32,139 bases of DNA. Source: Thermoanaerobacteraceae bacterium (GTDB lineage: Bacteria > Bacillota > JADQBR01). Shown here piece after piece: positions 2,407 to 19,617 of the stretch (positions are counted from its first letter, which is position 1; every line of letters starts with the position of its first letter). The position numbers were made by a program, and so were the translations under genes. The stretch covers positions 1 to 32,139 of the forward strand of contig JACDOG010000024.1 of assembly GCA_017656305.1 (NCBI GenBank), read 5' to 3'. A model generated the notes under the pieces. That model was given only the letters and a program-made list of their open reading frames with translations. It searched no databases and was not told the DNA's origin.

Positions 2407-2437
2407 ACTTCCCCCACTCCCCTGCCTTTCTAGACTT

Positions 2438-3877
2438 TTAACCTACCCGGAATCCATGGCCCACAACTCCCGATAAATCAATACCACGTTTGGTCAAAAA
2501 TGAATTCTCCTCAAGTAACTTTATGGATTGCAACATATACTGTTTTTTAAAATCATCAGTACAATGGACTACTTCCCGCATTTTGCCCTGATAATAAACC
2601 TTATAGCAGTTATGAAGTTCCTTAACCAACTGTTCCACTGTCATACGGCGCGGCTTTATAACAGGATCAACAAAGCTGTATTTACTGTAGTCGTACTCAA
2701 AAATATACTCCTTCAATTGACTGTACAAATCAGCATAGGGCCAGGGAGCAATTAACAAGAAGTGAGCGAAATCAGGATTATAATGCTGTGCCAGCTGCAA
2801 GGTTTCGCTTATTGTTTCCGGCGTTTCGTCCGGCATTCCGATGACAAAAGAGCACTCCGTGATAATGCCGGCCTGGTTCAACAAGTCAAGTGCTTGCTTA
2901 GACTGTTCACACTTAATGTTTTTCTTGAACTGTGCTAAACGCTCGTTACTTGTGGCCTCCACCCCGACGTAAATATGAATTACTCCAGCCTTCCTGTATT
3001 TTTCCAAAATATCCGCATCCCGTAAAATATCTTCCACACAGGTTTCAAACATCAGGTATATTCCCAAGTCCCTTTCAATCAGCATGTCCAGTACGGTTTC
3101 CCAGCGCTGGCGATTTTTGCTAGGGTACTCGTCCGACAGCATTACGGCTTCCACGCCGAATCTTTCTTTAAGCATTTGCAGTTCATCGACAAAACTTTCG
3201 GCACTGCGTTCCCGGTAGGTACGCTGCCAAAATTTCTGCTGCGAGCAGAAACTGCAGGCATTAAGACACCCTCGTGAGGAATTCACCAAAGCCAGTCGTG
3301 TTCCGGGAAAGACTTCAAAGCTGTAGTCCTCCCAATCCAGCAGGTCCCAGGCAGGAATTAACCGGTCTAAATCTTTAATGAAAGGTCTGGCAGGTGTGGA
3401 AATTACCCTGCCGTCCTTGAGGAAAGCAACTCCCTTAACCTTTTCCACGTTCCCGTTTGCCTGCAGGCAGTTCAACAATTCAGGGAATGTTTCCTCGCCT
3501 TCTCCTCTAATTACAAAATCAAGTATCCCGGCATAATTATGCAGCAGTTCCTGGTAACAAAAATTGGCATGAATACCGCCTATCACAGTAATAATATCCG
3601 CACTGACGTCTTTGGCAATTTTTAGTACCTCCATAGCGCTGTTCACTGAAGCGGTATAAGCGGTGGAAGCCACTACATCCGGTTTTCCCCGTTCGATATG
3701 AGCGGCAATCTGCGTCATATCATGGTCTTTCATCATGGCATCATATATTTCCACATCAAAACCTGCCTGTCGGAGATGTCCCGCCAGGTAGACAAAACCA
3801 AGATGCGGACACCGGCATGCCGTTTCTACCACCCCGGTATGAAAAGGAGGAGTAATCAGCATTACCTTTTTCATCAT
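2438..3877 (-). CDS. B12-binding-domain radical SAM enzyme (BchE-like architecture), substrate unknown
   Basis: The N-terminal part (about 1-145) is a Rossmann-like cobalamin-binding domain, with a start typical of the family (KKVMLITPPF) and VIGGIHANF in the usual GG position. The radical SAM domain follows, with the [4Fe-4S] motif CLNACSFC at about residues 204-211 and an aromatic-rich sequence after it. Length, about 479 aa, is typical for BchE/P-methylase-like proteins, which methylate or rearrange unreactive carbons. No substrate can be assigned. I chose the ATG at 3877 rather than the one at 3883 because AAAGGGG then sits 6 bases ahead. It follows ccsA closely (26 bp) and precedes the GGDEF/HD-GYP gene, so it belongs to the cytochrome transcript. 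A role in modifying haem, a quinone or a cytochrome residue is possible but is only inference from context. Confidence 0.85.
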   Translation of the reverse strand: MMKKVMLITPPFHTGVVETACRCPHLGFVYLAGHLRQAGFDVEIYDAMMKDHDMTQIAAHIERGKPDVVASTAYTASVNSAMEVLKIAKDVSADIITVIGGIHANFCYQELLHNYAGILDFVIRGEGEETFPELLNCLQANGNVEKVKGVAFLKDGRVISTPARPFIKDLDRLIPAWDLLDWEDYSFEVFPGTRLALVNSSRGCLNACSFCSQQKFWQRTYRERSAESFVDELQMLKERFGVEAVMLSDEYPSKNRQRWETVLDMLIERDLGIYLMFETCVEDILRDADILEKYRKAGVIHIYVGVEATSNERLAQFKKNIKCEQSKQALDLLNQAGIITECSFVIGMPDETPETISETLQLAQHYNPDFAHFLLIAPWPYADLYSQLKEYIFEYDYSKYSFVDPVIKPRRMTVEQLVKELHNCYKVYYQGKMREVVHCTDDFKKQYMLQSIKLLEENSFLTKRGIDLSGVVGHGFRVG

Positions 3878-3903
3878 GCCCATCCCCTTTCTGCCAGCAA
3901 AAG

Positions 3904-4752
3904 TTAGTTGGTGTATCCGGCATGGTTAGTAGTATAAATGTATCCTATACCAAACAATACAAATATCAATACCATCAATCCCAACAAGTTTAACCAGGCA
4001 GCCTTATGGCCCTTCCACCCGTGAATGCGGTAAAGGTGCAGGTAGATACCATAAATAAACCAGGTAATAAGAGACCAAGTTTCAATGGGATCCCAGCCCC
4101 AAAAAACGCCCCAGGCCTGGTTGGCCCATATTGACCCGGCTATAATCATTACCCCGATAAACAAAAAACCCAGTCCCGCAAAACGGTAGCTCAAGTCATC
4201 CAGCACGTCCAAATCAGGCAGAGCATGCCATAGGTTGGCAGCTCTTGCTTTACGCCGTTCAACACGACCTTTGATTAAGTAGAGAGCGGCTGCAGCAGCC
4301 GACACCAGGCAGGATGAATAAGCCAGCTTGGCAAATAAGATGTGCACTACCAGCCAGTAAGTCTGAAAGCTTCCAGGTAGAGTACGTATTTCCGGTGAAG
4401 ACAGGACACCGTAGCCCAAAACCAAAAAAGAAACAGGCATAATAACAGCACCAAGCAATTCCGTTTTCCGGTAACGCCATTGAATAAACAGAAACAATAC
4501 CACTCCAAGCCACACGTCAGACATTACTACCTCAAACCGGTTCAAATACGGCCCGTGCCCCGCCGCTATCCAGCGCAGCAGAATAGCGGCACTGTGCGGG
4601 AGCAGCCCCGCCACAACCGCAACTCTGGCCCACACTTTAACTTTATCCTTGCGGAAAACCAAACTGATAATATACAATACCGAGCTAACGGCATAAAGGC
4701 CCACAGCCACCCAAAGTAATAATACCTGGGTTTTGACGTCCACCTGAATCAC
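3904..4752 (-). CDS. ccsA: Cytochrome c biogenesis protein CcsA (ResC), System II haem handling
   Basis: This 282-aa polytopic membrane protein has about eight hydrophobic segments. It carries the tryptophan-rich WWD-type motif VFWGWDPIETWSLI near residues 214-227 (approximate), the haem-presenting signature of the CcsA/CcmC/CcmF superfamily. With ResB/Ccs1 it forms the System II synthetase that exports haem and ligates it to CXXCH motifs outside the membrane. The start is GTG, overlapping the resB stop by four bases (GTGA), with GGGGAG upstream, so the two are translationally coupled. It serves the flanking cytochrome genes, which together carry 43 CXXCH motifs in intact reading frames. Nomenclature varies (CcsB/ResC in other systems). 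Confidence 0.95.
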   Translation of the reverse strand: MIQVDVKTQVLLLWVAVGLYAVSSVLYIISLVFRKDKVKVWARVAVVAGLLPHSAAILLRWIAAGHGPYLNRFEVVMSDVWLGVVLFLFIQWRYRKTELLGAVIMPVSFLVLGYGVLSSPEIRTLPGSFQTYWLVVHILFAKLAYSSCLVSAAAAALYLIKGRVERRKARAANLWHALPDLDVLDDLSYRFAGLGFLFIGVMIIAGSIWANQAWGVFWGWDPIETWSLITWFIYGIYLHLYRIHGWKGHKAAWLNLLGLMVLIFVLFGIGYIYTTNHAGYTN

Positions 4753-6131
4753 CAGCTTTCTCCCCTAATTATTCGTTTAATACCGGTTAACTCTCTTTCA
4801 AACAGGTGCGGGTGAAGCCGCGCAGCCCCACTGACGTCCAGTACATCACCGTTTTCTGTCCTTTCTAGGGAAACTACGACTCGACGGGGTACCAGCAAGT
4901 ACAGTACAGCCACCCCGGCTATGCTTAACCAAGAGCCGAAGACCATCACCGGAACACCCCAATCTTTGGTGACCCAAAAGCCCAGCCAGCGGTTTAACTC
5001 AGCAAATTCAACCTTTAACCCGTCTACTTTAATTTCACCTCCCAAAAGCAGCAGTTGGGATCCCATAAATCCCTTTTCACTGCTGACCATAAGAAATAAC
5101 CCCGGGTTTTTCGGCTGCGTCGAACCATTGATGAATTTACCATTAGGCAGTTGCCGCAGGTCAGGAAACAGTATGGCATCAAAGGTCAAACCAAAGTCCT
5201 CAAGTGAAAAGGCCTTACTGTGCTTGACCCTGCCATTAACCACGGACCTGTCAAAGTTGATATGATACTTTCTCACCAGCTGCCCCCGGTCATTATAAAA
5301 GTCTAACACCAGAGTATAGCCTTGCTTGGCTAAAACAAACTTCATTCCTTGATAAGTAAAAGGATGGGCCCTGTCAACTTCCACTTTTCTTACAATTTCA
5401 CCGTCCTGGACAATCTCCACAGTACCCCTGGCCATGTAATTATTTTCACTTTCATCCCACTCTTCTTCCACCTTCTTCAAGGTCAGCTCGAATCCTGAAT
5501 GCCTCTCAGGGTACAAAAGGCTTTCCTCAATCTGGAAGTAGTTTTCATGAGTATCAACAAATGTCTGTCCTTCAGTTAACTCCACCGCTCCTTTCATATT
5601 AACCAGCACACTGGTCAACACTCCCAAAAGAATTACCAGCAGCCCGCCGTGAAAGACAATGGACCCCCAGTCCCCCAACCGACTGCGGCATAACACTGTG
5701 ACATCTTTCCCAGCAAAGCACGTAGCCATTTCCCTGCGGTAGCCATTTTCTGTTAAATATTGTACAGCCTTATTCACCGCCTCCTTACCGTCAGCAACTG
5801 GCAGTGAAAGCCTGGGATTTGCCATGGTTAGCGGTACCTTTTCCCGCCTTTTTCGCAGTACTTTAACCTGGTCAATGGTACAAACAAGCGTATTAAGAAA
5901 CAAAAGCACCACCAGTAAGCCAAACCACCAGGAGGTAAATACCTCCGTGATACCCAGGGTTTGAACCCAACGGGCCATGTTTGGGTGGGCAGCGCCCCAT
6001 GCTGCAAACTTACCATCACCAGGCAATTCCTGCTGGGGAATGCTTACCCCCAGCAGGGTTGCCACGGTAAGCAGTATGATTAGAATCAAAGCTAGTTTTA
6101 CAGAACGAAATAATTGCCATAATGCTGTCAT
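4749..6131 (-). CDS. resB: Cytochrome c biogenesis protein ResB (Ccs1)
   Basis: The 460-aa protein has the ResB layout: three transmembrane helices in the first third (around residues 10-30, 67-88 and 152-175), a large extracytoplasmic domain (about 180-400), and a final helix near 400-420 followed by a short cytoplasmic tail. It chaperones apocytochrome and delivers reduced haem with CcsA for thioether ligation. The ATG start has GGAG seven bases ahead. It lies 32 bp after the 15-haem cytochrome gene, consistent with maturation machinery expressed together with its substrate. No dedicated thioredoxin-like ResA or CcdA is encoded in this window, so thiol reduction must be provided elsewhere. 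Confidence 0.93.
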   Translation of the reverse strand: MTALWQLFRSVKLALILIILLTVATLLGVSIPQQELPGDGKFAAWGAAHPNMARWVQTLGITEVFTSWWFGLLVVLLFLNTLVCTIDQVKVLRKRREKVPLTMANPRLSLPVADGKEAVNKAVQYLTENGYRREMATCFAGKDVTVLCRSRLGDWGSIVFHGGLLVILLGVLTSVLVNMKGAVELTEGQTFVDTHENYFQIEESLLYPERHSGFELTLKKVEEEWDESENNYMARGTVEIVQDGEIVRKVEVDRAHPFTYQGMKFVLAKQGYTLVLDFYNDRGQLVRKYHINFDRSVVNGRVKHSKAFSLEDFGLTFDAILFPDLRQLPNGKFINGSTQPKNPGLFLMVSSEKGFMGSQLLLLGGEIKVDGLKVEFAELNRWLGFWVTKDWGVPVMVFGSWLSIAGVAVLYLLVPRRVVVSLERTENGDVLDVSGAARLHPHLFERELTGIKRIIRGESW

Positions 6132-6163: not shown

Positions 6164-9016
6164 CTAATGGTCACCTGTATGAGTTGCAGAACAGTCTTTT
6201 TTAGTGTAATTGCCGCTATTTGGCACATAACCTGTCAGTTTTGAAGTCGGGCTGGCAAATGGCGGTCCGTCGGATTGAATGGCAATTAGATGAGGCCGCG
6301 GTCCGCCGTGAGGTGTCATACCGTGACAGTCCATACAGCCGGCTTTTTTATGGTCACCTATTAAATGTAAGTTTTCTTTTTTGTCATCAGTAAATCCGGT
6401 ATTATTATCTCTTCGTTTGTCACCTCCACGATAGGTCGTGTAGTCATGACACTGGAAACAGAGATGGCTTGACGTATCGTAACCCGCCCGTCCAGTGTCT
6501 TCCGTGTACGGGGCCTTCAGGATATTTTTATTATTGGACCCGTGAACATTTCTCGGACTGGCCGGGTTTTCACTGCCATGGCAGTCGGTACAGGTCATCA
6601 TGGAATCCGGTGCCCACCCGTTTACCAGGGAAGCGGAATAGTCCCTGCCGTTATCGTGATACTCATTCTTCCCTACCGCCTCTATGGGGTGATAAGAAGG
6701 ATTGTTGGGATTAAAATCCCGCGCCACGTCTGTCTGCCCCGGAGGCGGTGTTGAACCGTAACTAAAACTGGAATGGCACTTGTAACAAAGCTCATATTCA
6801 TTGGTAATGGCTTTTACGAATATATACCCCGGAGAGTCAGGGGGCAAAATAGTCCACGCCGGGCGTACCGCCGGGTCGGTAGTTACCTGCACCCCGCTGA
6901 CGTTTCTCACGTATCCCGATGCCATCGGTGCGTTAACAGGCGTATCATTGGCCGCATGGGGATCGTGACAGTCGACACATTCCGCATGCCTGTCGGCAGC
7001 AGGCATATTATTATAGTTTTCATCATTACTGTGCTTACCCGACGTAGTTAAAGTTGGGTGTGTATATGCCTTGGTTGTAAAATCAGGCTTGACGTCAATC
7101 ACCCCGGGATAGCTGCCGTTATGGCAGCTATTACACCGGTTGTCCGCCGTTTCCGTGTCCTCCGCCTGGTTAACCAGCGAAGCGTAATTGGCCCCGTGTT
7201 CATCATGACACTGCGTACATTTTATTGAGGCAGCACCATGGCCTGATGAACCGTAAGTAGCAGCCTTGTTCCATCCTCCAGCATTGGTTGTAATATCCTT
7301 ACTTGGAAAAACAACGCTATTGGGCACAAAACTATTCACGTTGGCAACCTCCGTCGGCGGTGCACCGTCATGACACTTGAGACAAAAATCAGTAATATTA
7401 CCGATAGTGACATTTCCAGTAGCAGTACCGTCTTGAGTAAATACATTCTTGGTATTGTCCGGGTCAGAAAGGTCAGAATAGGACAATCCCTGTCCCAGGC
7501 TAACAGAACCCACCGCATGCGGGCCATGGCAGTTGGTACACCCCAACACTACTTCCGGTGCAGATCCCGTCAAGCTATGGGTTGAACCCGGACGCTGGTA
7601 CTCGGCTTTAATGTCACGCCCGCTCATGGAATTCGCTGCATCATCATGACAGTTATAACAGAGAGTATCCCCAATTGCCAATAACAGCTGCTCGTTGGGC
7701 GACGCGTGCTTGTCATGGCATTTGACACACGTTATTTGGGTGCCGGATGCAGGCTGTAACACCGTTTTGGTCTCGTCATAATGGGCCGCATTGATATTAC
7801 TATGGTCACCCAACGTATCCTCCCAATAGGTATCCGTCGGACCTGTAAAGTTACGGTCATTTATACCGTGGCAGGACAGGCAGAATTCTTTCCCTTTATA
7901 ATAATAGTTGCCTCCGTCACTGGCCCGCAGGAGCTTGGGATAAAGGTTGCCGGGATTATTAGGGTCTTCATCCCCGTGTGGGTTATGGCAGCTGGCACAC
8001 TCTATGGCACCGTTGATTCCTAAATTACCCGTATCCTTTACAGGATGAAAGCTAACATTCCCGCTGTTGCTGTCAAATAAAGCCTGAACGTTATAGTTAC
8101 TACCTGTCCCGTCATGGCAGGTATAGCAAACACCGGTTATAGTTGTTTGAGTTAACAGGTCACTACCGGTTGCAGCATGACTGCTGTGACAGGAAGCACA
8201 GGCATCGGTATTTTCCATGTATAACCCGTGGGGACCTTCAACTGCGGGATTGGTACTACGGGTAAAAGCACGCTTTGCACCCGTTGTCGCACTGTCAGTA
8301 TTACTGAAAACCGATGTATTGCCTGCACTGTCATAAGCCTGAACCTTATAGTAATAAGTAGTATTCGCCTGCAACCCGTCATCAATAAACGTCGTGTTAC
8401 TGGCCGTACTTACTTTGCTGAAATTAACATTATCGGTACTGCGATATATCTTATAACCTGCGATACCCACATCATCGGTACTCCCAGACATAGTTAATTT
8501 CAGCTGGTAACTCATAACGTTACCCTGACCGTCCGTTACCTGCCTTACTGTCAGAGTAGGCGCAGTGGGTGCAGTCTCGTCAACAGTAAATGTCCACGTA
8601 TAATCTGCAGACAAAGCGCTACCCGCAAGGTCCTTTACGCCATTGGTACCGCCCTTAACAGTTACTGTATAAGTAGCGTTATTGGTTAGCGCGGCACCCG
8701 GTTGAAAGGAAGCCTGGTTATTATGACTGTCATAACTAACACTGCCGTTGATATTGCCCGCCCCATCATTAACTAAGAAAGTAGAACTGTTGATAGTAGC
8801 ACTGTCCATACTCTCACTGAATGTTACTCTTACAACAGTATTTGTACTGGCATTTTTTGCGCCTTCTCCCGGTGTGGTGCTAACTACAGTCGGGGGTGTG
8901 GTATCCGCCGCAAAGGCGCTGTTTTTCGCCGCAACTGAAATAGAAACGACAAGCAGCAACATGAACATGAGCATTTTCACAAAAGTAAATATTCCTTTGC
9001 TCCTCAAAAGTATCAC
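6164..9016 (-). CDS. Secreted multihaem cytochrome, 15 CXXCH plus a terminal CXXTH, with Ig-like and Fn3 domains
   Basis: The protein is about 950 aa. Numbered from the longest frame (GTG at 9025), it has a signal peptide ending near AFAA (residue 40), an SbsA-type Ig-like (Big_5) domain at about 41-148, a fibronectin type III domain at about 151-248, and then a haem-rich region from 276 to the end. I count 15 CXXCH motifs, many as CXXCHxxH (CASCHSSH, CASCHNPH, CTNCHGPH, CTQCHDEH, CVDCHDPH), the paired-CXXCH style of extracellular cytochromes. The last residues contain CSATH (945-949), where Thr replaces the second haem cysteine. Likely role: cell-surface electron conductor or terminal reductase. 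The start is uncertain: GTG at 9016 has AGGTG six bases ahead, and GTG at 9025 and 8980 are alternatives. Maturation genes follow directly. Confidence 0.92.
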   Translation of the reverse strand: MILLRSKGIFTFVKMLMFMLLLVVSISVAAKNSAFAADTTPPTVVSTTPGEGAKNASTNTVVRVTFSESMDSATINSSTFLVNDGAGNINGSVSYDSHNNQASFQPGAALTNNATYTVTVKGGTNGVKDLAGSALSADYTWTFTVDETAPTAPTLTVRQVTDGQGNVMSYQLKLTMSGSTDDVGIAGYKIYRSTDNVNFSKVSTASNTTFIDDGLQANTTYYYKVQAYDSAGNTSVFSNTDSATTGAKRAFTRSTNPAVEGPHGLYMENTDACASCHSSHAATGSDLLTQTTITGVCYTCHDGTGSNYNVQALFDSNSGNVSFHPVKDTGNLGINGAIECASCHNPHGDEDPNNPGNLYPKLLRASDGGNYYYKGKEFCLSCHGINDRNFTGPTDTYWEDTLGDHSNINAAHYDETKTVLQPASGTQITCVKCHDKHASPNEQLLLAIGDTLCYNCHDDAANSMSGRDIKAEYQRPGSTHSLTGSAPEVVLGCTNCHGPHAVGSVSLGQGLSYSDLSDPDNTKNVFTQDGTATGNVTIGNITDFCLKCHDGAPPTEVANVNSFVPNSVVFPSKDITTNAGGWNKAATYGSSGHGAASIKCTQCHDEHGANYASLVNQAEDTETADNRCNSCHNGSYPGVIDVKPDFTTKAYTHPTLTTSGKHSNDENYNNMPAADRHAECVDCHDPHAANDTPVNAPMASGYVRNVSGVQVTTDPAVRPAWTILPPDSPGYIFVKAITNEYELCYKCHSSFSYGSTPPPGQTDVARDFNPNNPSYHPIEAVGKNEYHDNGRDYSASLVNGWAPDSMMTCTDCHGSENPASPRNVHGSNNKNILKAPYTEDTGRAGYDTSSHLCFQCHDYTTYRGGDKRRDNNTGFTDDKKENLHLIGDHKKAGCMDCHGMTPHGGPRPHLIAIQSDGPPFASPTSKLTGYVPNSGNYTKKDCSATHTGDH

Positions 9017-9026
9017 CCCCGGCACC

Positions 9027-9090: not shown

Positions 9091-12072
9091 TTACTTGACA
9101 AGTTGAATGTACAGCGGCCTATTCACCTGATTTATTCCCGGCGGGGGCGTCAATCCCGACCCGCCTTGATCAATCCTTACCAACAGGTACCCGTAATCAC
9201 TCTGCCAACTTTGACCAGGGTTTTGCGGCAAACGAAACTTAACCTGCGTTCCTAACGGCACAGGATACCATTCATCATTATGGATCCAGGTCTTGCCCTG
9301 GTCCAGAGAAAAGTCAACGTGACCACCCTGTGGTGATTTAATGCTTACCTCTAGATTATTGGTGCCATCTTGCGTAACATTGCCGAAGGCATCGTAGGCA
9401 TTTATTGTTGCCCGGTAAATCCTGGCAGGTTTTATGGTGATTTTTTCAGGGTCCCAACCAACATAACTCGGTTTTCCAGGTTCTACTTCAACTTTCCAGG
9501 TGCGTGAAACGTCCACCTGCTGCAGTGGTGCACTGGGAACCCTCAGGTCCCGGTACTGGAGAACTGCCGTTACCCGATTGATACCGGGTACAGTACTTGC
9601 AGCCAACTTACCGTAAACACTTCCGGTCCTGTCCGGTCTCGGAATTCCTAAAGGAATGCCCTGGACGTCAACAACCTGAACCCTACCGTCAGCCTGAAAA
9701 TAGCCTACCTTTGGTTTTCTCTTCCAGGCCCCGGGAACTTTTTTCGAATGCTCAACCGCAAACACTACCCTGGCCTCAGGAGCGGTCACCGGCTGCCCGT
9801 TGTGGTCGGTGATAACTGCCCGAAAACTTACTTCTTCCCCGGTTGCAACACGTCTTTTCAGTCCCTTCAATTCTACATTCCAGTCCAGCGCTCTAACCCA
9901 GGTCGTTGCTCTAACAGAAACCGCGCCCAACTGGTCTGGAGTAAATTCAACAATGATTTCCGCCTTACCGGGGCTGTTGCTGGTAAATTCCCCCACCACA
10001 GTTGTTGGGGAAACAGCTTCAAGTTTCGTAAACTCACTGAAATCGGTAGCATACCTCCAGGTGCCCGATACCGGTACGGGATTCCCGTAAACATCTTCTG
10101 CCACCGTTTTTATTCTGATGGTTTTGTTCTTACTATCCACAAATAATGCAGAACTGCTTAACTCTATACGCAGCCTGTCCGGAACTCCCGCAGTTGGATG
10201 CGTCACCTTGACAGCAGCACCACGGTAGGGCTTCCCGCTGGCAAGCTCCGAAGGTTGGCTCTCATTTCCGCTTGTATCCACTGCTGTCAAATAGTAATGG
10301 TACGTCTTTCCTTGTTTCAAACCGTCATCTGCATACATGGTATCCTTTATTAACTTGTCGTTTACTTTCTCAAAATCATCTGCCGCACCGCTGCCTGACC
10401 GGTACAGGTTATATCCTGCAAGGTCTTCTTCAGTATTCCTCTGCCACGACAGGACCAATTCGTCACCGCTCCACGGATCGTCAACGGACAAGCCAGTGGG
10501 CACTGCCGGCGGTGTTTTGTCCTGGGAAATACCCTGAACTTCTGCAGGTTTGGACTCATTGCCCAGGTCATCAAATGCAGTCAGCCGGTACCTATATGCG
10601 GTGTTTCGTGTTAGACCGGTATCCAAATACTGCGTCTGTGCCTTATCTGCCGTACCAGCGATAGTTGCCACTAGTTGGAAATTATCCGTACCGCTTTCCG
10701 CCCGGTACAGGTGATACCCTGCCAGGTCGGCATCACCGTTTGGCAACCACCTGATGAGCAACTCCGTACCTATGCCGGGATTATCAACTGTCAGGCCGCG
10801 GGGCACACCTGGTGGTGTAGTATCCAATGTCGGCATACCAGATGCAACAGCACTGGGCTCCGAACTGTTACCTGCAATATCCACAGCTATCAAGTAGTAG
10901 TAGTAAATAGTATCATTTTCAACAGTTTCATCGGTAAATTTGGTGATATCTCCCGCCAGTTCAACCACTTCTACAAAAGGCCCCTCCGGTGTTGGAGCCC
11001 TGTAGAGCCGGTACCCGTTTAGGTCATTCTCAGTATTGGGGGTCCAGCTCAGTAACAGTTTCCCGCCTGTCCTAAGGTCCGTGACCTTCAGCCCAACAGG
11101 CGAGGCAGGAGGCACTTCATCCTTAGTGGGAATTACCGTTACTATGTCAGAAGGTGCTGATTCGTTACCTGCTTTATCCAGTGCCGTTACATAATATCTA
11201 TATTCTGCACCCGTGCTCAGACCGGCATCCAGATAAACATTTTCAAATACACTGGCTATTTTACTGAAGCCAGTGTCTCCGTAAACTGCCCGGTAGACAT
11301 TATATTTGTTCAGATCCTGTTCACTATTTGCTTCCCAGCTCAACCTCACACTTTCGCCAGTACCTAAATCCAATGCAGTTAACCCCTGCGGTTTGCCAGG
11401 TGGCTCTCTGTCAGGAACAGAAACTGACAGATGTACTTCATCGTAGGCCACATAGGTATTGGCGCCTGACATAGAAGCATACAGCTGAATTTGATACCGG
11501 CCTTTTCCCGTAAATACATTGGAGATATCCAGGTTCTCTACCTTGTTCCATTCGTCACCGTAAACAGCGCCGGATACGGTCAGTGTGTCTCCGGCATCCT
11601 GCCAAACCGTCACCGGCCGCCGGCCGCCCGGTGGAAGTATCCTTATTTTCGCCGCTGCTTCCTCGCCAAGTTCCACTGCTTTTTGATATGCGAAACTTAA
11701 ATTTACCACAACCTCATCCCTTGATATGTTAAAGTCCTGATATATGTACCCGCTAACCGTTCTGTTATCAGAGTAAACCGTATCCTTTACCGTGGCCTTC
11801 TTTGGCGGAACAGACATCTTTACCGCCCCGCCCCGTCCGGATACTATCTGCTCACCTGCGGCTATCTTGCCGGAAAATCCCTGGGAAATCCAATCAACCA
11901 AGAGTTCTCCCACATCATTCCATTCCATTAAGTCATCCGAAAAACTGCCGTTGTCAAGCACACTCCCGGCGCTTACCAGCGGTATTGCAACCAACAAGGA
12001 AGCAATCATACTAAATATTATAGTTATCTTAACCATTCCCAAACGGCTGATGAACTGTTTAACTTTCGTCAC
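9091..12072 (-). CDS. Secreted protein with four fibronectin type III domains, no cysteine
   Basis: The 993-aa protein has a signal peptide (hydrophobic stretch about 14-33, ending LVSAGS). An N-terminal jelly-roll-like module follows (about 35-225), then four Fn3 repeats, each opening with a proline-rich linker (PPGKPQGL, PPASPVGL, PPGVPRGL, PPAVPTGL) and containing an LxxYNLYR-like strand (about 225-620). The C-terminal third (about 625-990) resembles bacterial Ig-like/invasin-type modules. I see no CXXCH and no cysteine at all, and no SLH or LPXTG anchor. The start is GTG with a strong AGGAGGTG seven bases upstream. It sits between an NHL protein and the 15-haem cytochrome, which shares Fn3-type modules. 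It probably forms a surface scaffold or adhesive partner for the cytochromes. That role is inferred from context. Confidence 0.85.
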   Translation of the reverse strand: MTKVKQFISRLGMVKITIIFSMIASLLVAIPLVSAGSVLDNGSFSDDLMEWNDVGELLVDWISQGFSGKIAAGEQIVSGRGGAVKMSVPPKKATVKDTVYSDNRTVSGYIYQDFNISRDEVVVNLSFAYQKAVELGEEAAAKIRILPPGGRRPVTVWQDAGDTLTVSGAVYGDEWNKVENLDISNVFTGKGRYQIQLYASMSGANTYVAYDEVHLSVSVPDREPPGKPQGLTALDLGTGESVRLSWEANSEQDLNKYNVYRAVYGDTGFSKIASVFENVYLDAGLSTGAEYRYYVTALDKAGNESAPSDIVTVIPTKDEVPPASPVGLKVTDLRTGGKLLLSWTPNTENDLNGYRLYRAPTPEGPFVEVVELAGDITKFTDETVENDTIYYYYLIAVDIAGNSSEPSAVASGMPTLDTTPPGVPRGLTVDNPGIGTELLIRWLPNGDADLAGYHLYRAESGTDNFQLVATIAGTADKAQTQYLDTGLTRNTAYRYRLTAFDDLGNESKPAEVQGISQDKTPPAVPTGLSVDDPWSGDELVLSWQRNTEEDLAGYNLYRSGSGAADDFEKVNDKLIKDTMYADDGLKQGKTYHYYLTAVDTSGNESQPSELASGKPYRGAAVKVTHPTAGVPDRLRIELSSSALFVDSKNKTIRIKTVAEDVYGNPVPVSGTWRYATDFSEFTKLEAVSPTTVVGEFTSNSPGKAEIIVEFTPDQLGAVSVRATTWVRALDWNVELKGLKRRVATGEEVSFRAVITDHNGQPVTAPEARVVFAVEHSKKVPGAWKRKPKVGYFQADGRVQVVDVQGIPLGIPRPDRTGSVYGKLAASTVPGINRVTAVLQYRDLRVPSAPLQQVDVSRTWKVEVEPGKPSYVGWDPEKITIKPARIYRATINAYDAFGNVTQDGTNNLEVSIKSPQGGHVDFSLDQGKTWIHNDEWYPVPLGTQVKFRLPQNPGQSWQSDYGYLLVRIDQGGSGLTPPPGINQVNRPLYIQLVK

Positions 12073-12106: not shown

Positions 12107-13114
12107 TTATTGGTCCAGATGAATATATACCATCACCCTATTACTGTCCCTGTCGGCAATATATAAATTACCGGATTGGTCGGCAGCTAGACCGTTGGGA
12201 AAATTAAACCGGCTTTTTTCTGAACTTTCAGACCCCCACACCAGCCCCTTGGCAGCAGCCAAATCATAACTGGCTATCCGGTGAGTTATTGTATCTGCAA
12301 TGTGCAACAATCCCCGCTGCCTATCAAGGGCCAGGCCCCTGGGAGTAACCAGCTTTCTTTCATTGATAGACTTGAGGCTGCGTTTATACTCACCGCTCAA
12401 ACTAAATTCCTGAATTCTACCATTATTGGTATCTGCCACATAAATGCGGTCATTTTGTTCATCTACAGCTATACCATTAGCAAACTTAAACTGTCCCGCT
12501 GCGGTGCCTTCTTTACCAAACTGGTGGAAAAACCTGCCGCTGGCATCAAAGACGAGCACTCGCTGGCCGAGCACATCACTTACATAAAGTTTACCGCTAT
12601 CACCAACGGCCAGAGCTGCCGGCTTAATAGTACCCAGCACTTTCCCGTCTTTTTCCACCGGCAGTTGGTACAGATATTCTCCTTCCAAATGCCAAACCTG
12701 CACCCGGCCATTATTAAAATCTGCAACGTACAACAGTTGTTGGGAATCATCAACAGCAACAGCAACAGGGTAATTCATAGCAACACCTTCTATTGACGAC
12801 TGTCCGTACTGCCGGAGTACTTTGCCGGTTATATCAAACATCACTACCCTGTTGTTTCCTGAATCCGCAACCAACACGCGCCCATCGGCGGTTACAGCAA
12901 CACCTAAAGGCTTGTCCAGCCCCTTTCCTGATATTATTCGCATCTCACCGCCTTGAAACGGAAAATCAATGGGAGGATTATTGGGAGCAATAACCTGCTG
13001 CCAGAGCTCACCTGTCGTTGAAGGTTGCAGTTTCAAATACAATCCAGCTATAGTTAACAACAGCACACAAACCAAAAAGAAAATTATCATGCCTTTGATG
13101 CCAACGCGTCCCAA
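12107..13114 (-). CDS. Membrane-anchored NHL-repeat beta-propeller protein
   Basis: This 335-aa protein has an N-terminal signal anchor (about residues 8-28) followed by about 280 residues of NHL repeats. Each repeat carries the pattern 'PxGVAVD..G.LYVADxxNNRVxVF', for example VLVADSGNNRV, IYVADTNNGRI and LYIADRDSNRV, so a six-bladed propeller outside the membrane is expected. There is no enzymatic motif. NHL propellers usually bind proteins or ligands. The start is TTG, chosen because GGGAGG lies seven bases upstream. It lies between the hexahaem cytochrome and the Fn3 protein, and a second NHL protein lies on the other side of the cytochrome. An assembly or docking role for the cytochrome is plausible but unproven. 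Confidence 0.88.
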   Translation of the reverse strand: MGRVGIKGMIIFFLVCVLLLTIAGLYLKLQPSTTGELWQQVIAPNNPPIDFPFQGGEMRIISGKGLDKPLGVAVTADGRVLVADSGNNRVVMFDITGKVLRQYGQSSIEGVAMNYPVAVAVDDSQQLLYVADFNNGRVQVWHLEGEYLYQLPVEKDGKVLGTIKPAALAVGDSGKLYVSDVLGQRVLVFDASGRFFHQFGKEGTAAGQFKFANGIAVDEQNDRIYVADTNNGRIQEFSLSGEYKRSLKSINERKLVTPRGLALDRQRGLLHIADTITHRIASYDLAAAKGLVWGSESSEKSRFNFPNGLAADQSGNLYIADRDSNRVMVYIHLDQ

Positions 13115-13153
13115 TTAACTCCCTCCCGTACAAAGTTGCGACTGAATTTTTTT

Positions 13154-14140
13154 CTATTTATTATGACACACCTGACAAACACCGCGGTTATCCAAACGCA
13201 GTAACGTACTGGATGTACTTGTACTGGTACCGTCAGCACGATTGAACGTCACGGTGTTGGTAGCTTTGGTTCCGTGAGCATAATGACAAGTCAGGCACAT
13301 TACCTGCTGGTTTGCTGCGGTACCATCACTGGACTGCAACGGCATTAAAGGACTGGGTTGGGATAGAGTAGCGATGGTCCAACTGTTTTCATTCGTGCCA
13401 GCATAAAGACTGGGATCCATTCCCACACGGTGACGTGCAAAACTACCATAAGTACCTAATGCAGTATCATCTCCAGAACCAGCACCTGTCTGCTTAAAGT
13501 CCTGATGGCATGCACCGCAAAACTCATTCCAACCAGACTGGTAACTAACGGCCTCATCACCTAGTACTGTTCCTGCTGCAATGTCCAGTGTTGGTGGTGT
13601 GGCACTGATATCAACGCCATTCACATTAACCCTCAGCGCACGCGCTGTGTTTGCGGTATTATGCGGGTCGTGACAGCTGGCACAGGTTAATTCCATGTAG
13701 TTACCAGCATTTGTATCATAACCGGGAACCCAAACCGTAGTGCCGTTTGCAGCGTCAACGTCGTGCTCGGAAGTAACAGCGGCAAATACAGGTGTTGCAC
13801 CCTCGGTGGTTACCACCTGGTCAAAACCGCCAGCACTGGAAGCGTAAGTACCTGTTCCAGTTACAATAGCACCGTTAATTACGTCATACTTGCTCTGTCC
13901 GCCGCTCTTATGGCAGTATACGCATGTCCGGTAGACATCATTCTGCGTGCCGGCCTCCAGATTTTGAATCAAGTTCTTTCCAGCTGCAGCGTGGGTGCTG
14001 TGACATTGCCCGCAGGCAGCGGTGTCAGCAGTATAGCCCCCGTGAATGTTACTGGAAATTGTGTAAGCTGCGGCAACCCCAACTCCCAAAACCAATGTAA
14101 ACACCAGGACCATGGATAAGATTAACAACTGCCTTTTCAT
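13154..14140 (-). CDS. Secreted hexahaem c-type cytochrome
   Basis: The 328-aa protein starts at the ATG at 14140 (GAGGTG seven bases ahead) with a clear signal peptide MKRQLLILSM... ending at AAAYT (about residue 27). An upstream GTG at 14188 would add 16 charged residues before the signal sequence and is less likely. Six haem motifs lie at about residues 43 (CGQCH), 73 (CVYCH), 153 (CASCH), 208 (CGACH), 282 (CLTCH) and 322 (CQVCH). Motifs one, three and five are CXXCHxxH, the last His being a candidate axial ligand for a neighbouring haem. There is no membrane anchor after cleavage, so it is secreted or wall-associated. It is flanked by two NHL propeller genes. Possible roles are an electron shuttle across the wall or a subunit of a cytochrome filament. 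Confidence 0.92.
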   Translation of the reverse strand: MKRQLLILSMVLVFTLVLGVGVAAAYTISSNIHGGYTADTAACGQCHSTHAAAGKNLIQNLEAGTQNDVYRTCVYCHKSGGQSKYDVINGAIVTGTGTYASSAGGFDQVVTTEGATPVFAAVTSEHDVDAANGTTVWVPGYDTNAGNYMELTCASCHDPHNTANTARALRVNVNGVDISATPPTLDIAAGTVLGDEAVSYQSGWNEFCGACHQDFKQTGAGSGDDTALGTYGSFARHRVGMDPSLYAGTNENSWTIATLSQPSPLMPLQSSDGTAANQQVMCLTCHYAHGTKATNTVTFNRADGTSTSTSSTLLRLDNRGVCQVCHNK

Positions 14141-14208
14141 CCGTTTCACCTCGCCCCATAACTTTTTTTCTTCATTCTCTTCATCCACCCCACCCCCCTT
14201 CCAAAATA

Positions 14209-14225
14209 TGTTAACTTTTTGTTAA
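14209..14225 (-). promoter_or_regulatory. Two TTAACA repeats at 11-bp spacing: possible PhoB/PhoP site
   Basis: On the minus strand, upstream of the hexahaem cytochrome gene, two perfect TTAACA units begin exactly 11 bp apart (separated by AAAAG). This is the half-site and period seen in the pstS PHO box at 27499-27537 in this same window. Only two units are clear. Each is also part of a GTTAAC palindrome, so binding of another regulator, or chance in AT-rich DNA, is possible. Confidence 0.4.
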
Positions 14226-14262
14226 CTTGCTTTACCGGCCTGTACTTGAAATTTTTTTCACA

Positions 14263-15231
14263 TTATTTAAACACCGAAACTCTATTGTTTCCCACTTCAG
14301 TGACATACAAGCGCCCGTTGCCATCTATATAAAGCCCATTTGGCAGGTTAAACTGGCCGTTTCCAGTTCCCCGGCTGCCCACGCGGAACAGTTCTTCGCC
14401 ATCAGGTTTAAAAACCATCACCTGACCGAGCAGGCCAGTTACCACATATATGTTACTTTTTCGATCAATATCAATCCCGCGGGCAGTAGTCAATGACCCT
14501 ACTTTACCTTCTTCTCCACCGATGGTCTTCAGATAATTGCCCTGGGAATCAAAAACCTGAATGCGGTTATTACCGGAATCTGCAACGTAAATATTGCCGT
14601 CATTATCCACAGCAACGCCGTTAGGATAACTGAACTGTCCCGGTTCTTTCCCTTCTTCCCCGAAACTAAGCAGCAAATTGCCGCTCAGGTCAAAGACCAA
14701 CACCTTCATCTTGATCACATCGGTAAGATAAAGCCTGCCATCCCGGATCTTCAAGTCGCCCGGTTTACGGTAAACTCCTTCTTTGGAAGGTTTAAAGTAC
14801 CCCAAAAACTCCCCGCCGGTATCAAAAATTGCAATCCGGCCTTTGTCCAGGTCTGCAACGTAAAGCTTTCCATCAGCCACAGCAAGACCATAAGGAGTGC
14901 GCACCAGGGGTTCTTTTCCCTTCTCGGGAGCACCGATTAAACGTTGAAACTCGCCATTGTAGTCGAATACTTGAATCTGATGGTTGTCCGAATCGGAAAC
15001 ATAAATCTCTCCCCCCGAAACTGTAACGGCCATGGGGTAGTTTAAGGAAATTTCTTTTAGCCCGTAAATCGCATACTTAAACTCCGGAGGTGTGGTTTGA
15101 GGTGCAGTTACGGGTATTACTCGTGTAACTTGTTCCACCGGGTTCTGATTGTTGATGTAATAAACTCCAAAAGTTACGGTTCCTACCAGAGTAAGACTTA
15201 GAATAATGATTATCAGAGTCGAAATTTTCAT
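14263..15231 (-). CDS. Membrane-anchored NHL-repeat beta-propeller protein (second copy)
   Basis: This 322-aa paralogue of the NHL protein at 12107-13114 has an N-terminal anchor (MKISTLIIIILSLTLVGTVT) and then NHL blades such as IYVSDSDNHQIQVF, LYVADLDKGRIAIF, IYVADSGNNRIQVF and LYVTEVGNNRVSVF. The ATG at 15231 is preferred, with GAAAGGG upstream. A GTG nine bases earlier would add only three residues. It lies directly after the TPR gene and upstream of the hexahaem cytochrome. Blade sequences are diverged from the first NHL protein, which suggests an old duplication rather than a recent copy. No catalytic residues can be seen. The protein is probably exposed on the outer face of the membrane. 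Confidence 0.88.
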   Translation of the reverse strand: MKISTLIIIILSLTLVGTVTFGVYYINNQNPVEQVTRVIPVTAPQTTPPEFKYAIYGLKEISLNYPMAVTVSGGEIYVSDSDNHQIQVFDYNGEFQRLIGAPEKGKEPLVRTPYGLAVADGKLYVADLDKGRIAIFDTGGEFLGYFKPSKEGVYRKPGDLKIRDGRLYLTDVIKMKVLVFDLSGNLLLSFGEEGKEPGQFSYPNGVAVDNDGNIYVADSGNNRIQVFDSQGNYLKTIGGEEGKVGSLTTARGIDIDRKSNIYVVTGLLGQVMVFKPDGEELFRVGSRGTGNGQFNLPNGLYIDGNGRLYVTEVGNNRVSVFK

Positions 15232-15249: not shown

Positions 15250-15939
15250 TCACTGGTGGTTGCCCAGTCTTTCCAGAGCTTTTCTGGCCTGCTTGAAGTT
15301 AGGGTTGTACTCCAATGTTTTTTGGTAGTATTCCCTGGCTTTATCCACATCGCCGGCTTTTTCGTAAGCAATACCCAATTGATAGTAAACATTGGTGTTA
15401 CCCGGGGAAATTCTTATTGATTCCTTAAAGTTGGAAATTGCCTTCTCGTATTCTCCCAATTCACTGTAAATAAGCCCCAGGATTGAATAACCGCTGGCAT
15501 GCAGGGGATTTTTTTTCACGTATTCTTCCATTAATAACCTGGCATCTTCCAAATTTCCGTTTTCTATGTATGCCGATGCCAAATTAAACTTTGCTCTCAT
15601 ATTTTCAGGTTCCAGTTTTAGTGCATTCTTGTATTCCCTAATGGCCTCTTCAACTTGACCTCTTTGAAAATAAACCCAACCTAATGCCACTCGGTAGTCA
15701 ACATTGTTAGGGTCCCGTTCCACATTATCCAGTGCTATTTCCAAATCCCGGTCCAGTTTAGTGGTTTCCTCGTACTGGTCCCAAAAAAACATTTTCCCAA
15801 TTTGCATGCCAGCTAATGCAATAATCAACACAGACAGCACGATTAGAAATATACTTAACTTCAGACTGATTCTTTTTTCGCCATCCTTTTCCGCCTGCGC
15901 CACGGCTATTGCTCCCTTCAGTAACTGTCGCCAAAACAT
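15250..15939 (-). CDS. Membrane-anchored TPR-repeat protein
   Basis: The 229-aa protein has one transmembrane helix (about residues 27-46) after a short basic N-terminus, then four consecutive 34-residue tetratricopeptide repeats at about 79-112, 113-146, 147-180 and 181-214, each showing the W/L-G-Y-A-P pattern (for example ALGWVYFQRGQVEEAI). TPR arrays bind partner proteins. Topology (positive residues before the helix) suggests the repeats face outside, where cytochromes are matured. A resemblance in role to the NrfG/CcmI-type TPR assembly factors is conceivable, but there is no direct sequence evidence. It sits 18 bp ahead of the NHL gene within the cytochrome cluster. Confidence 0.85.
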   Translation of the reverse strand: MFWRQLLKGAIAVAQAEKDGEKRISLKLSIFLIVLSVLIIALAGMQIGKMFFWDQYEETTKLDRDLEIALDNVERDPNNVDYRVALGWVYFQRGQVEEAIREYKNALKLEPENMRAKFNLASAYIENGNLEDARLLMEEYVKKNPLHASGYSILGLIYSELGEYEKAISNFKESIRISPGNTNVYYQLGIAYEKAGDVDKAREYYQKTLEYNPNFKQARKALERLGNHQ

Positions 15940-15980
15940 CGGTTAGACCTAATAAATTTATCTTAAACCCAAAGCAGGAC

Positions 15981-16116
15981 CTACTGCTTTAACCACCTTT
16001 CATCATGGCAAGTCAGGCAATGCGCGTCATCCCTTTTTGCGACGTTGCCGCTTTGTATGACAGTCCTTACAGAAAGGATTTGTCAGTACCGCATCGGGAA
16101 TTTTAGCTTTCCACAT
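15981..16116 (-). pseudogene. Frameshifted di-haem cytochrome remnant
   Basis: The frame starting at ATG 16116 encodes 29 codons with a haem motif (NPFCKDCHT) and stops at 16027. The adjacent frame continues the homology-like sequence (VIQSGNVAKRDDAHCLTCH, then DERWLKQ and a stop at 15981) with a second haem motif. The two frames join within a few bases of the first motif, as expected from a one- or two-base indel around 16050-16060. The fragment lies right after the 12-haem gene and may be a decayed tail or an independent small cytochrome. It is too short for standard ORF thresholds. Confidence 0.65.
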
Positions 16117-16151
16117 TTTTTAACCAAACTTCCTCCATGACTTTTTCTGCA

Positions 16152-17288
16152 CTACGTTCCCTGCATGTGGCAACGGGCACACTGCCGTTCCGAATGGCAG
16201 GTAAAACACTCCTCGCTGACGCCACCTTCCACCCGCACGTTTTTGGGATGCTGGCGGCGCCAGTTGCCGCGCTTATGAATACCGGTATGGCACTTGTTGC
16301 AGTAAGTCTGTGCCGGCGCACCGATTGCCGACGCCGGTTTGCCGACGCTATGGCACACCAGGCAGGGTTCTGAATTAGGTTTGGCCGCCTTACCGTGGTC
16401 GCTCATCCAGTCACCGCCCTGGTGGCTGGGAGGAAGCATGTCGTGACAGTCAGCACAAAACGGGTTCCGCCTTGAGTATTCGGCAGCCTTGTTGACGGTG
16501 CCACCGGTCGGGTCCTCCAGGTTCAAGTCACTGCTGGCATACGAGTGACAGTTGATGCAGTTATCCAGGTTCTCTTTGGCCAGCTTGCCGTGCTTGCTGG
16601 TCCAGTCAGGAACTTGGTGCGACTCCGGGTTGCCTATTCGCGTGTGGCAGGCTTCACATTCCAGACTGATCTCTTTACTCTTGTGACAGTCCATACACGT
16701 GCTCATCTGCGGTACAATATTTTTCCGTACCATCTGCGCCTGACCGGCAGCTGCAGTCCAGGCGGTAAAGCTCCCGTCCAGGGTAAGCTGCCGCATGGCA
16801 ATATTTCCGTGGGCAATCCCCATATGACACTCGGTACAGGCAACCTCCACCTTTGTTATGTGCCTCTCGTGGGGCAGCGTGATGTCACCGGAGGCCGTGA
16901 CTACCCTGTTCACCGTATGACAGCTCAAACAAACCTCGTTATCCAGGTCTTCCTGCATGTTGATAGGCAGGTAATAGCTTTTGGTCAGGTAAGCATACAA
17001 CTGCTTGAAGGTTTTTACCTTGTATTCCAGCCGACTTTTCCAGGTAGCACCGGCATGACACCGGGTACAGGCCATCCTGCTGTGAGCAGAAGCTTTCCAC
17101 GTGTAATACTCCGGCTGCATCTCATGACACGATAAACAGAAATCGCCAGGAAACTCCGCCTCAAGGCGCACAGCCAAACCAAACAATATGATTATCAACA
17201 GCCCGCTGGTGAAAATCAGCAGTTTCCATTTACCACCGGGGGCAGCGATAAATATTTCTCTAAAATACTGCAGTACCTTACCAATCAT
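16152..17288 (-). CDS. NapC/NirT-like membrane-anchored cytochrome with 12 CXXCH motifs
   Basis: The 378-aa protein has one N-terminal transmembrane helix (KWKLLIFTSGLLIIILFGLA, about residues 20-40) and then 12 haem motifs: CLSCH, CTRCH, CLSCH, CTECH, CMDCH, CEACH, CINCH, CADCH, CLVCH, CNKCH, CFTCH and CARCH. The first part, CLSCHEM followed by a Tyr/Trp-rich stretch and ACTRCHAG, is the NapC/NrfH/CymA signature of quinol-oxidising cytochromes. The remainder is an elongated haem tail. The start ATG at 17288 follows GGGGGT by seven bases. A TTG at 17309 is possible but less likely. It is a tandem paralogue of the 10-haem gene upstream and has two additional C-terminal haem sites. Probable function: accept electrons from menaquinol and pass them outward to the secreted cytochromes. 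Confidence 0.92.
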   Translation of the reverse strand: MIGKVLQYFREIFIAAPGGKWKLLIFTSGLLIIILFGLAVRLEAEFPGDFCLSCHEMQPEYYTWKASAHSRMACTRCHAGATWKSRLEYKVKTFKQLYAYLTKSYYLPINMQEDLDNEVCLSCHTVNRVVTASGDITLPHERHITKVEVACTECHMGIAHGNIAMRQLTLDGSFTAWTAAAGQAQMVRKNIVPQMSTCMDCHKSKEISLECEACHTRIGNPESHQVPDWTSKHGKLAKENLDNCINCHSYASSDLNLEDPTGGTVNKAAEYSRRNPFCADCHDMLPPSHQGGDWMSDHGKAAKPNSEPCLVCHSVGKPASAIGAPAQTYCNKCHTGIHKRGNWRRQHPKNVRVEGGVSEECFTCHSERQCARCHMQGT

Positions 17289-17342
17289 TAAATAACCCCC
17301 ACTTATCAAAACAAGTCTTGCTACCGCTTGTGGTTAAGAGAG

Positions 17343-18353
17343 TTAAATGCTGCTATCCGGTTCGACAAACCAGTGGCACATGTTGCAGTATGTCCTGGTA
17401 ATTTTTCTTCCCGCAGCGGTTTTCTTGACATTATGACAGGCATAACAGCTTTCCTTACCTTTGGCCAAAACCTCGCCTTTATGGGCTGTCTTCCAGTCTT
17501 CCACCGCGTGACTTGGCGGCCGCACTGAATGGCATTCGTAACAAAAGTCGATTTCCCTCACTACTTTTAGCACCGGCCGCTGCGCCATCCCCGGCAGGAA
17601 CCGGTCACTTGCATGGCACTTGAGGCAGCTCACGGCGTCTTCCCGGGCATCCAGCCCGTGAATACTGTCCCAGTCTGCCTGTTTATGGGAATCCGGCAGG
17701 TAAATTATTTTGTGACAGGCTTCGCAGTCCGTGGTAATACCCCGCTCCTGATGACAGGTCATGCAGGTATCCATCCGCGGCCGCAAAAACCTGGCCCGGG
17801 TCTGTTCTCTGGCAACCTGGACCGTCCACTCCGCGTAAGGTATTTCCTTTATTACCGACCGCCGCATGAGGCGCCCGTGGACAACTCCGTCGTGACAGGT
17901 AACACACGGCACTTTTTTTTCCAGGTGCCGGTTATGGGGAATAAGCAAATCCCCGGAAGCATTAACCAGGCGGTTGGGTGAGTGACATTGTTCACAAACT
18001 GCAGTATTTACCGGCCGTGATACTGTGAAAGTGACAGGCACGGAATTTTGTGCATGTCTGTAACTCTTGTAGATACCGCCTATTTTAAACCTTGCGGCGT
18101 TAACTAGGCCAGAACCGGCATGACACCTGACGCAGGCAACCTTTTTGTGGGAACTTTCCTGCCACGTCAGGTAATGGGGTCTCATTTCATGACAGGAATT
18201 GCAAAACCGCGAACCCGCCGCAGGCTCCTGCTGCCCGGTTAGGATAATAAAACCCAACAGCAGCATTCCAGTCGCCAGGACCAACCTTTTTGGCAAACTT
18301 TTTATGCCAGTTGAGTAAAATTTAGGAAATAGGTGGTTAAAAAAAAACCTCAA
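17343..18353 (-). CDS. NapC/NirT-like membrane-anchored cytochrome with 10 CXXCH motifs
   Basis: The start chosen is TTG at 18353, 12 bases after GGAGGG, which puts the transmembrane helix (RLVLATGMLLLGFIILTG) near residues 23-40. A GTG at 18440 would add 29 residues of non-signal-like sequence overlapping a DNA dyad. There are ten haem motifs: CNSCH, CVRCH, CEQCH, CVTCH, CMTCH, CEACH, CLKCH, CYECH, CYACH and CNMCH. The first (CNSCHEM, then a Tyr-Trp stretch, then CVRCHAG) has the NapC/NrfH pattern for quinol oxidation. It aligns along its length with the 12-haem neighbour, and its C-terminus with the remnant at 307-597. It is the first cytochrome of the cluster, directly after the polyprenyl synthase. 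Likely a quinol dehydrogenase feeding the secreted cytochromes. Confidence 0.9.
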   Translation of the reverse strand: MRFFFNHLFPKFYSTGIKSLPKRLVLATGMLLLGFIILTGQQEPAAGSRFCNSCHEMRPHYLTWQESSHKKVACVRCHAGSGLVNAARFKIGGIYKSYRHAQNSVPVTFTVSRPVNTAVCEQCHSPNRLVNASGDLLIPHNRHLEKKVPCVTCHDGVVHGRLMRRSVIKEIPYAEWTVQVAREQTRARFLRPRMDTCMTCHQERGITTDCEACHKIIYLPDSHKQADWDSIHGLDAREDAVSCLKCHASDRFLPGMAQRPVLKVVREIDFCYECHSVRPPSHAVEDWKTAHKGEVLAKGKESCYACHNVKKTAAGRKITRTYCNMCHWFVEPDSSI

Positions 18354-18394
18354 AACTTCGCCACTCCCTCCTGGCAAATGTGCGAAGCAGAGGT

Positions 18395-18444
18395 TTGAAG
18401 TGCGACACTTCAATGGAATGCATCCATTAAATTTTCGCACTTCA
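18395..18444 (-). promoter_or_regulatory. Dyad symmetry upstream of the first cytochrome gene
   Basis: A perfect 8-bp dyad with a 3-base centre (TTGAAGTG CGA CACTTCAA, 18395-18413) lies about 40 bases upstream of the chosen start. Its left arm plus centre (TGAAGTGCGA) recurs in inverted orientation at 18435-18444. This looks like a protein-binding site rather than a terminator because no T tract follows. The regulator is unknown. Confidence 0.45.
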
Positions 18445-19570: not shown

Positions 19571-19602
19571 CAAAAAAGGCGCACCGCAAAATCCGGCACG
19601 CC
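19571..19602 (-). terminator. Rho-independent terminator after sdhB
   Basis: On the minus strand a 9-bp stem with two G-U pairs (GGCGTGCCG / CGGTGCGCC, 7-base loop) is followed directly by TTTTTT. It begins 16 bases after the sdhB stop and separates sdhCAB from the cytochrome cluster. Confidence 0.8.
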
Positions 19603-19617
19603 TCCAAAGTAACCACA

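Follow-up and report, generated by a model that had tools for sequence, protein, structure and literature searches.

A hexahaem OmcS homologue and its conserved NHL propeller neighbours in a Thermoanaerobacteraceae genome

The window analyzed here is the whole of a 32,139-nucleotide stretch of a Thermoanaerobacteraceae genome (GenBank assembly GCA_017656305.1, contig JACDOG010000024.1). It contains a one-strand string of genes, mostly separated by short gaps (Table 1), that begins with a HepT-type polyprenyl diphosphate synthase gene, passes through genes for a 10-haem and a 12-haem cytochrome, a TPR protein, an NHL propeller, a hexahaem cytochrome and a second NHL propeller, and continues with genes for an fn3 protein, a 15-haem protein, and the ResB and CcsA-type maturation proteins. 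The string ends with genes encoding a B12-binding radical SAM protein and a GGDEF/HD protein (window 703-3883); a relative of the former was also found near another hexahaem locus (L046). At the other end, a terminator-like hairpin of 12 pairs (window 19575-19605, minus strand) is located shortly before the HepT-type gene and follows the succinate dehydrogenase genes. The gap separating the 12-haem gene from the TPR gene (15960-16151, minus strand) holds two frames, NPFCKDCHTKRQRRKKG followed by DAHCLTCHDERWLKQ, resembling a small dihaem piece broken by a frameshift. Its origin from the 11- to 17-haem gene found at this place in relatives was rejected: the best matches are NapC-type cytochromes and are weak, so the gap may represent either a decayed remnant or a sequencing error.

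Table 1. Features of the hexahaem locus (window coordinates).
Feature	Coordinates	Strand	Basis and remarks
CcsA-type cytochrome c assembly protein	3904..4752	-	Pfam Cytochrom_C_asm, 139 bits
ResB-like cytochrome c maturation protein	4749..6131	-	Pfam ResB, 160 bits
15-haem cytochrome with Big_5 and fn3-like domains	6164..9025	-	15 CXXCH; Pfam Big_5, Paired_CXXCH_1
Secreted fn3-domain protein, no haem motif	9091..12072	-	Pfam fn3; place in the gene string
Downstream NHL propeller, N-terminal membrane anchor	12107..13114	-	TTG start; Pfam NHL, 143 bits
Secreted hexahaem cytochrome, OmcS/CwcA type	13154..14140	-	Likely start ATG 14140; open frame from GTG 14188
His25 codon (mature cytochrome), second His of CGQCHSTH, equivalent to OmcS His16	13991..13993	-	Alignment to OmcS
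Upstream NHL propeller, N-terminal membrane anchor	14263..15231	-	ATG 15231, open frame from GTG 15240; Pfam NHL, 124 bits
TPR protein, membrane-anchored	15250..15939	-	TPR models; TPR_CcmH_CycH, 51 bits (cut-off 42)
12-haem NapC/NirT-type membrane cytochrome, putative quinol dehydrogenase	16152..17309	-	Pfam Cytochrom_NNT, 74.5 bits; 12 CXXCH
10-haem NapC/NirT-type membrane cytochrome	17343..18440	-	Pfam Cytochrom_NNT, 54 bits; 10 CXXCH

The original prediction described a secreted hexahaem cytochrome devoid of an anchor and bracketed by two membrane-anchored NHL propellers, and the genes, their coordinates and the minus strand all proved right; the gaps between them are short. The ATG start of the cytochrome, preceded by GAGGTG, is more likely than the GTG at the beginning of the open frame; the protein has a signal sequence ending in AAA before a Y, and no other anchor was seen by eye. 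Each NHL protein carries an N-terminal hydrophobic stretch (19-residue Kyte-Doolittle mean of 2.85 in the downstream and 2.33 in the upstream protein) with no obvious cleavage site, and both were assigned by Pfam against a curated cut-off of 20 bits. Six haem motifs are present, as had been claimed, whereas the extended form CXXCHxxH, ascribed to them in general, occurs in only three (haems 1, 3, and 5). Besides the CXXCH histidines, the mature protein contains exactly six His, the number required by six bis-His haems.

The hexahaem cytochrome is homologous to OmcS. This similarity, which the original prediction held could not be claimed by eye, is borne out by profile, profile-profile, and fold comparisons, as well as by the twelve ligand positions. 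A PDB search with the single sequence gave no match, so the homology is visible only with profiles; a search of genome contigs for related loci yielded only two weak relatives. In the family alignment of 21 hexahaem proteins, which joins the window's protein with 20 relatives encoded in the same genome or in related ones, the six CXXCH motifs are retained and so are six further His, one of these in 20 of the 21 proteins. The best solved structure for the profile of these proteins is OmcS (6EF8, E 1.5e-20; next entry, E 2.1e-9), and hhalign of the Bacillota family against the OmcS clade, itself verified as OmcS (E 1e-171), gave a probability of 99.8 and E 1.5e-27. Control profiles of the NapC-type and 15-haem families of the same gene string did not match OmcS. 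In the tree, the Bacillota and OmcS-clade sequences form the two sides of a single fully supported branch, which gives no sign of a recent transfer from the OmcS clade, and such an origin is not supported. The filament families of OmcE and OmcZ have four- or eight-haem subunits and do not fit, as the subunit here has six haems; 7TFS, which we take to be OmcE, matched the 21-protein profile with just 34 bits over short stretches.

Of the twelve axial His of OmcS, eleven come from the same chain and one, that of haem 5, from the neighbouring subunit (PMC6584659); this inter-subunit ligand is His16 (PMC13319180). According to the profile alignment, His16 is the second His of the OmcS motif CEGCHTMH, and its equivalent in the window's cytochrome is His25 (mature numbering), the second His of CGQCHSTH. 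In a larger alignment of 72 sequences (46 from Bacillota and 26 from the OmcS clade), the six CXXCH and the six further His are conserved in the same order; the N-terminal His is offset by three residues between the two groups, yet is present in both. The His16/His25 position is kept in 45/46 Bacillota and 25/26 OmcS-clade proteins, 70/72 in total. The two exceptions, one per lineage (L037 9380-10363, CRNCHTIW, and L126 8708-9997, CDGCHGSL), are each encoded near a hexahaem gene that has the His16-type ligand; possibly, they are chain-end subunits.

In structural models the cytochrome is predicted to have the OmcS fold. For the AlphaFold2 model built from Bacillota sequences alone (pLDDT 63, pTM 0.69), OmcS was the sole match upon re-alignment of the Foldseek candidates (Z 10.1 over 218 residues). 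The model based on 72 sequences scored higher (pLDDT 78, pTM 0.82) and matched OmcS with Z 12.7 and rmsd 3.6 over 227 residues (next entry, Z 2.8), being less independent, as its alignment includes OmcS-clade proteins. The OmcS structure was released in 2019, later than the AlphaFold2 training cut-off. Plain Foldseek also ranked OmcS first, but with an E of only 6e-3. The first 40 residues of the 72-sequence model, containing haem 1 and His25, have confidence of 50 to 60, and much of the remainder about 90; the low confidence of this predicted segment would fit an arm leaving the chain.

The association of NHL genes with OmcS-type clusters, put forward in the original prediction, is real, and the NHL-hexahaem gene module is conserved. 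Among the Bacillota loci, which were picked by the cytochrome and not by NHL, an NHL gene is found immediately upstream of the hexahaem gene in 41/46, the order TPR-NHL-hexahaem in 31/46, and NHL genes on both sides in 16/46; for the OmcS clade, 23/26 loci have an NHL gene no more than three genes upstream. Because individual genomes contribute several paralogues and some loci come from close relatives, these counts are not independent events. In the one OmcS-clade case checked, a distinct YncE/lactonase-like propeller follows the cytochrome. The genome of the window encodes no more than four NHL propellers of this type, each beside a cytochrome of the OmcS-type hexahaem family; the arrangement is therefore not due to chance. 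By reading of the loci, the longer 11- to 12-haem paralogues mostly have no propeller, NHL being immediately upstream in 1/11. Distances between cytochromes correlate with those between upstream NHL proteins (r 0.67) and between TPR proteins (0.79), with a contribution from shared species history. A strictly conserved Cys or His able to bind haem was sought in the NHL proteins and not found.

The genome encodes Spo0A and no LpxC, as fits a sporulating bacillotal host with a single membrane; apparently, the host is a spore-forming monoderm. The window shows the CwcA-type pattern of a hexahaem OmcS homologue in an apparently monoderm host, encoded together with a 10-haem NapC-type cytochrome. 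Matches to the family profile at E <= 1e-15 were found in 23 of the 398 genomes sampled in the phylum, a count that includes longer paralogues.

The cytochrome is not new in kind, as it has a named counterpart, CwcA (Tfer_0075) of Thermincola ferriacetica, likewise a hexahaem OmcS homologue, which was modelled in 2021 on OmcS as a stack crossing the peptidoglycan, haem 5 being proposed to be ligated by the next subunit; CwcA produced in Escherichia coli was insoluble, and NHL is not mentioned in that paper (PMC7911101). One of the genomes compared (G059) is probably a Thermincola, as its 10-haem gene starts with MGIRD, the published N-terminus of ImdcA (Tfer_0070), and the hexahaem gene stands five places beyond it, as the numbering of CwcA would predict; from these two features, the hexahaem gene at L041 8135-9205 is the probable CwcA gene. 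The window's 10-haem gene occupies the same position as that of ImdcA, and the order of the 10-haem, 12-haem, TPR, and NHL genes at L041 is as in the window, with TPR-NHL directly before the hexahaem gene. The window adds a second NHL gene and the fn3 gene, and lacks the 17-haem gene of L041. The cytochromes of the two loci are approximately 30% identical, whereas the closest copy in G059 (L038) shares 53% with the window's protein.

OmcS of Geobacter sulfurreducens (6EF8, 6NEF), the subunit of filaments that conduct electrons, is about 25% identical to the window's cytochrome. It has the same order of six haems, all six further His match in position, the predicted fold is common to most of the window's chain, and an NHL gene lies nearby in the OmcS clade. 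In contrast, OmcS has 407 residues versus 303, the loops of the window's cytochrome being much shorter, and the N-terminal His of the latter is three residues further from haem 1. Of the two, OmcS alone is known to form filaments, and the host of the window's protein apparently has no outer membrane. Other hexahaem relatives in Firmicutes make up clade II.B of Gavrilov et al. (2021), a study in which 11- to 12-haem proteins, probably the long paralogues of the window's genome, branch from the hexahaems; no function was assigned, and the terms OmcS and NHL are absent from its text (PMC7829351). In gene clusters of Dethiobacter alkaliphilus, a bacillotal relative, NHL and TPR genes occur among multihaem genes and were suggested to help complex assembly or cytochrome placement; that study connects them with neither OmcS-type hexahaem proteins nor wires (PMC10376724). 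Among the papers accessible to our literature search, none tied NHL to OmcS-type genes, and the TPR-NHL-hexahaem module common to two phyla seems to be previously undescribed.

The original prediction had proposed a filament or a docked shuttle, and the filament idea is supported by both the link to OmcS and the NHL association. In our opinion, the locus is probably best explained by an OmcS homologue of the CwcA kind that polymerises into a wire crossing the cell wall, with the NHL and TPR proteins as its dedicated partners. From the sequence comparisons we infer the following route. The 10- and 12-haem NapC-type cytochromes in the membrane would oxidise menaquinol, while the ResB/CcsA-type system would attach haem to the secreted cytochrome. 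The latter would stack head to tail into a chain of bis-His haems, haem 5 of each subunit being ligated by His25 of the one before it, and electrons could run along this chain across the cell wall, perhaps even further. Subunits would be taken over by the membrane-anchored TPR and NHL proteins, which would initiate, build, or tether the chain, and the fn3 and 15-haem proteins are possible wall or surface partners. Points against a wire are the low identity to OmcS, the low model confidence around haem 1 and His25, the modest plain Foldseek match, and the shortened loops: the OmcS interface buries about 1900 square angstrom, much of it possibly within loops that are shorter here. The literature search yielded no report of a filament for any member of Bacillota, and the importance of OmcS wires in Geobacter itself is disputed (PMC11077965).

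Two other explanations deserve consideration. First, the NHL and TPR proteins could help secreted multihaem cytochromes in general to mature or fold and have no role in a wire, given that the TPR protein resembles the apocytochrome-binding domain of CcmH/CycH, with TPR_CcmH_CycH above the Pfam cut-off, and that the maturation genes belong to the same gene string. We consider this unlikely: many multihaem cytochromes are encoded in the genome, yet the four NHL propellers all stand beside the hexahaem family and are mostly missing near the longer paralogues, and a factor of general use would not require a separate copy for every hexahaem gene. Second, a cytochrome retaining the OmcS fold could reside in the wall as a single chain or a short oligomer that docks on NHL and shuttles electrons from the membrane cytochromes to the 15-haem protein. 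Such a shuttle agrees with the NHL genes that flank the hexahaem gene on at least one side in most loci, their products almost always having an N-terminal membrane stretch, with the loops shorter than in OmcS, and with the adjacent large multihaem proteins as potential acceptors. Nevertheless, it too is unlikely, as under the OmcS ligand scheme His25 would have no obvious role in a lone chain and is still almost invariant, OmcS-clade proteins share the NHL neighbour while OmcS itself forms filaments, and CwcA could not be kept soluble. Finally, the reading of the protein as an ordinary secreted cytochrome with a generic likeness of doubled CXXCH proteins, compatible with its passing the generic Paired_CXXCH_1 model and with the empty single-sequence search, was rejected as highly improbable, since the two control profiles miss OmcS, the fold match extends over the chain (Z 10 to 13) and has no near competitor, the six other His follow the same order as in the OmcS clade, and the NHL link is common to both groups.

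Returning to the wire, we tentatively suggest a further possibility, about which we are ourselves rather doubtful: the anchored NHL and TPR proteins might form a docking or assembly machine dedicated to OmcS-type wires, predating the split of the Bacillota and OmcS-clade proteins and duplicated alongside the wire gene, which would give every wire an assembler of its own, and the rare copies without the His16-type ligand would terminate chains. A propeller gene travelling with OmcS-type genes in two phyla is a concrete candidate and a lead on how cytochrome wires are put together and tethered. Through this locus, the range of OmcS-type proteins among single-membrane bacteria grows well past Thermincola, and the TPR-NHL-hexahaem module is the part worth following.

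Longer proteins with similarity to the hexahaem cytochrome were also observed. The 11- to 12-haem paralogues in the genome (L051 5174, L052 8002, L053 5013, L054 2040, and L055 8041) match the hexahaem family with both halves and mostly lack TPR as well as NHL neighbours; presumably, they are of the SmhB kind known from Carboxydothermus. On a contig labelled as a gammaproteobacterial MAG (L035 5584-9620), an NHL propeller is encoded directly before a 24-haem protein, one stretch of which is similar to the window's hexahaem cytochrome.
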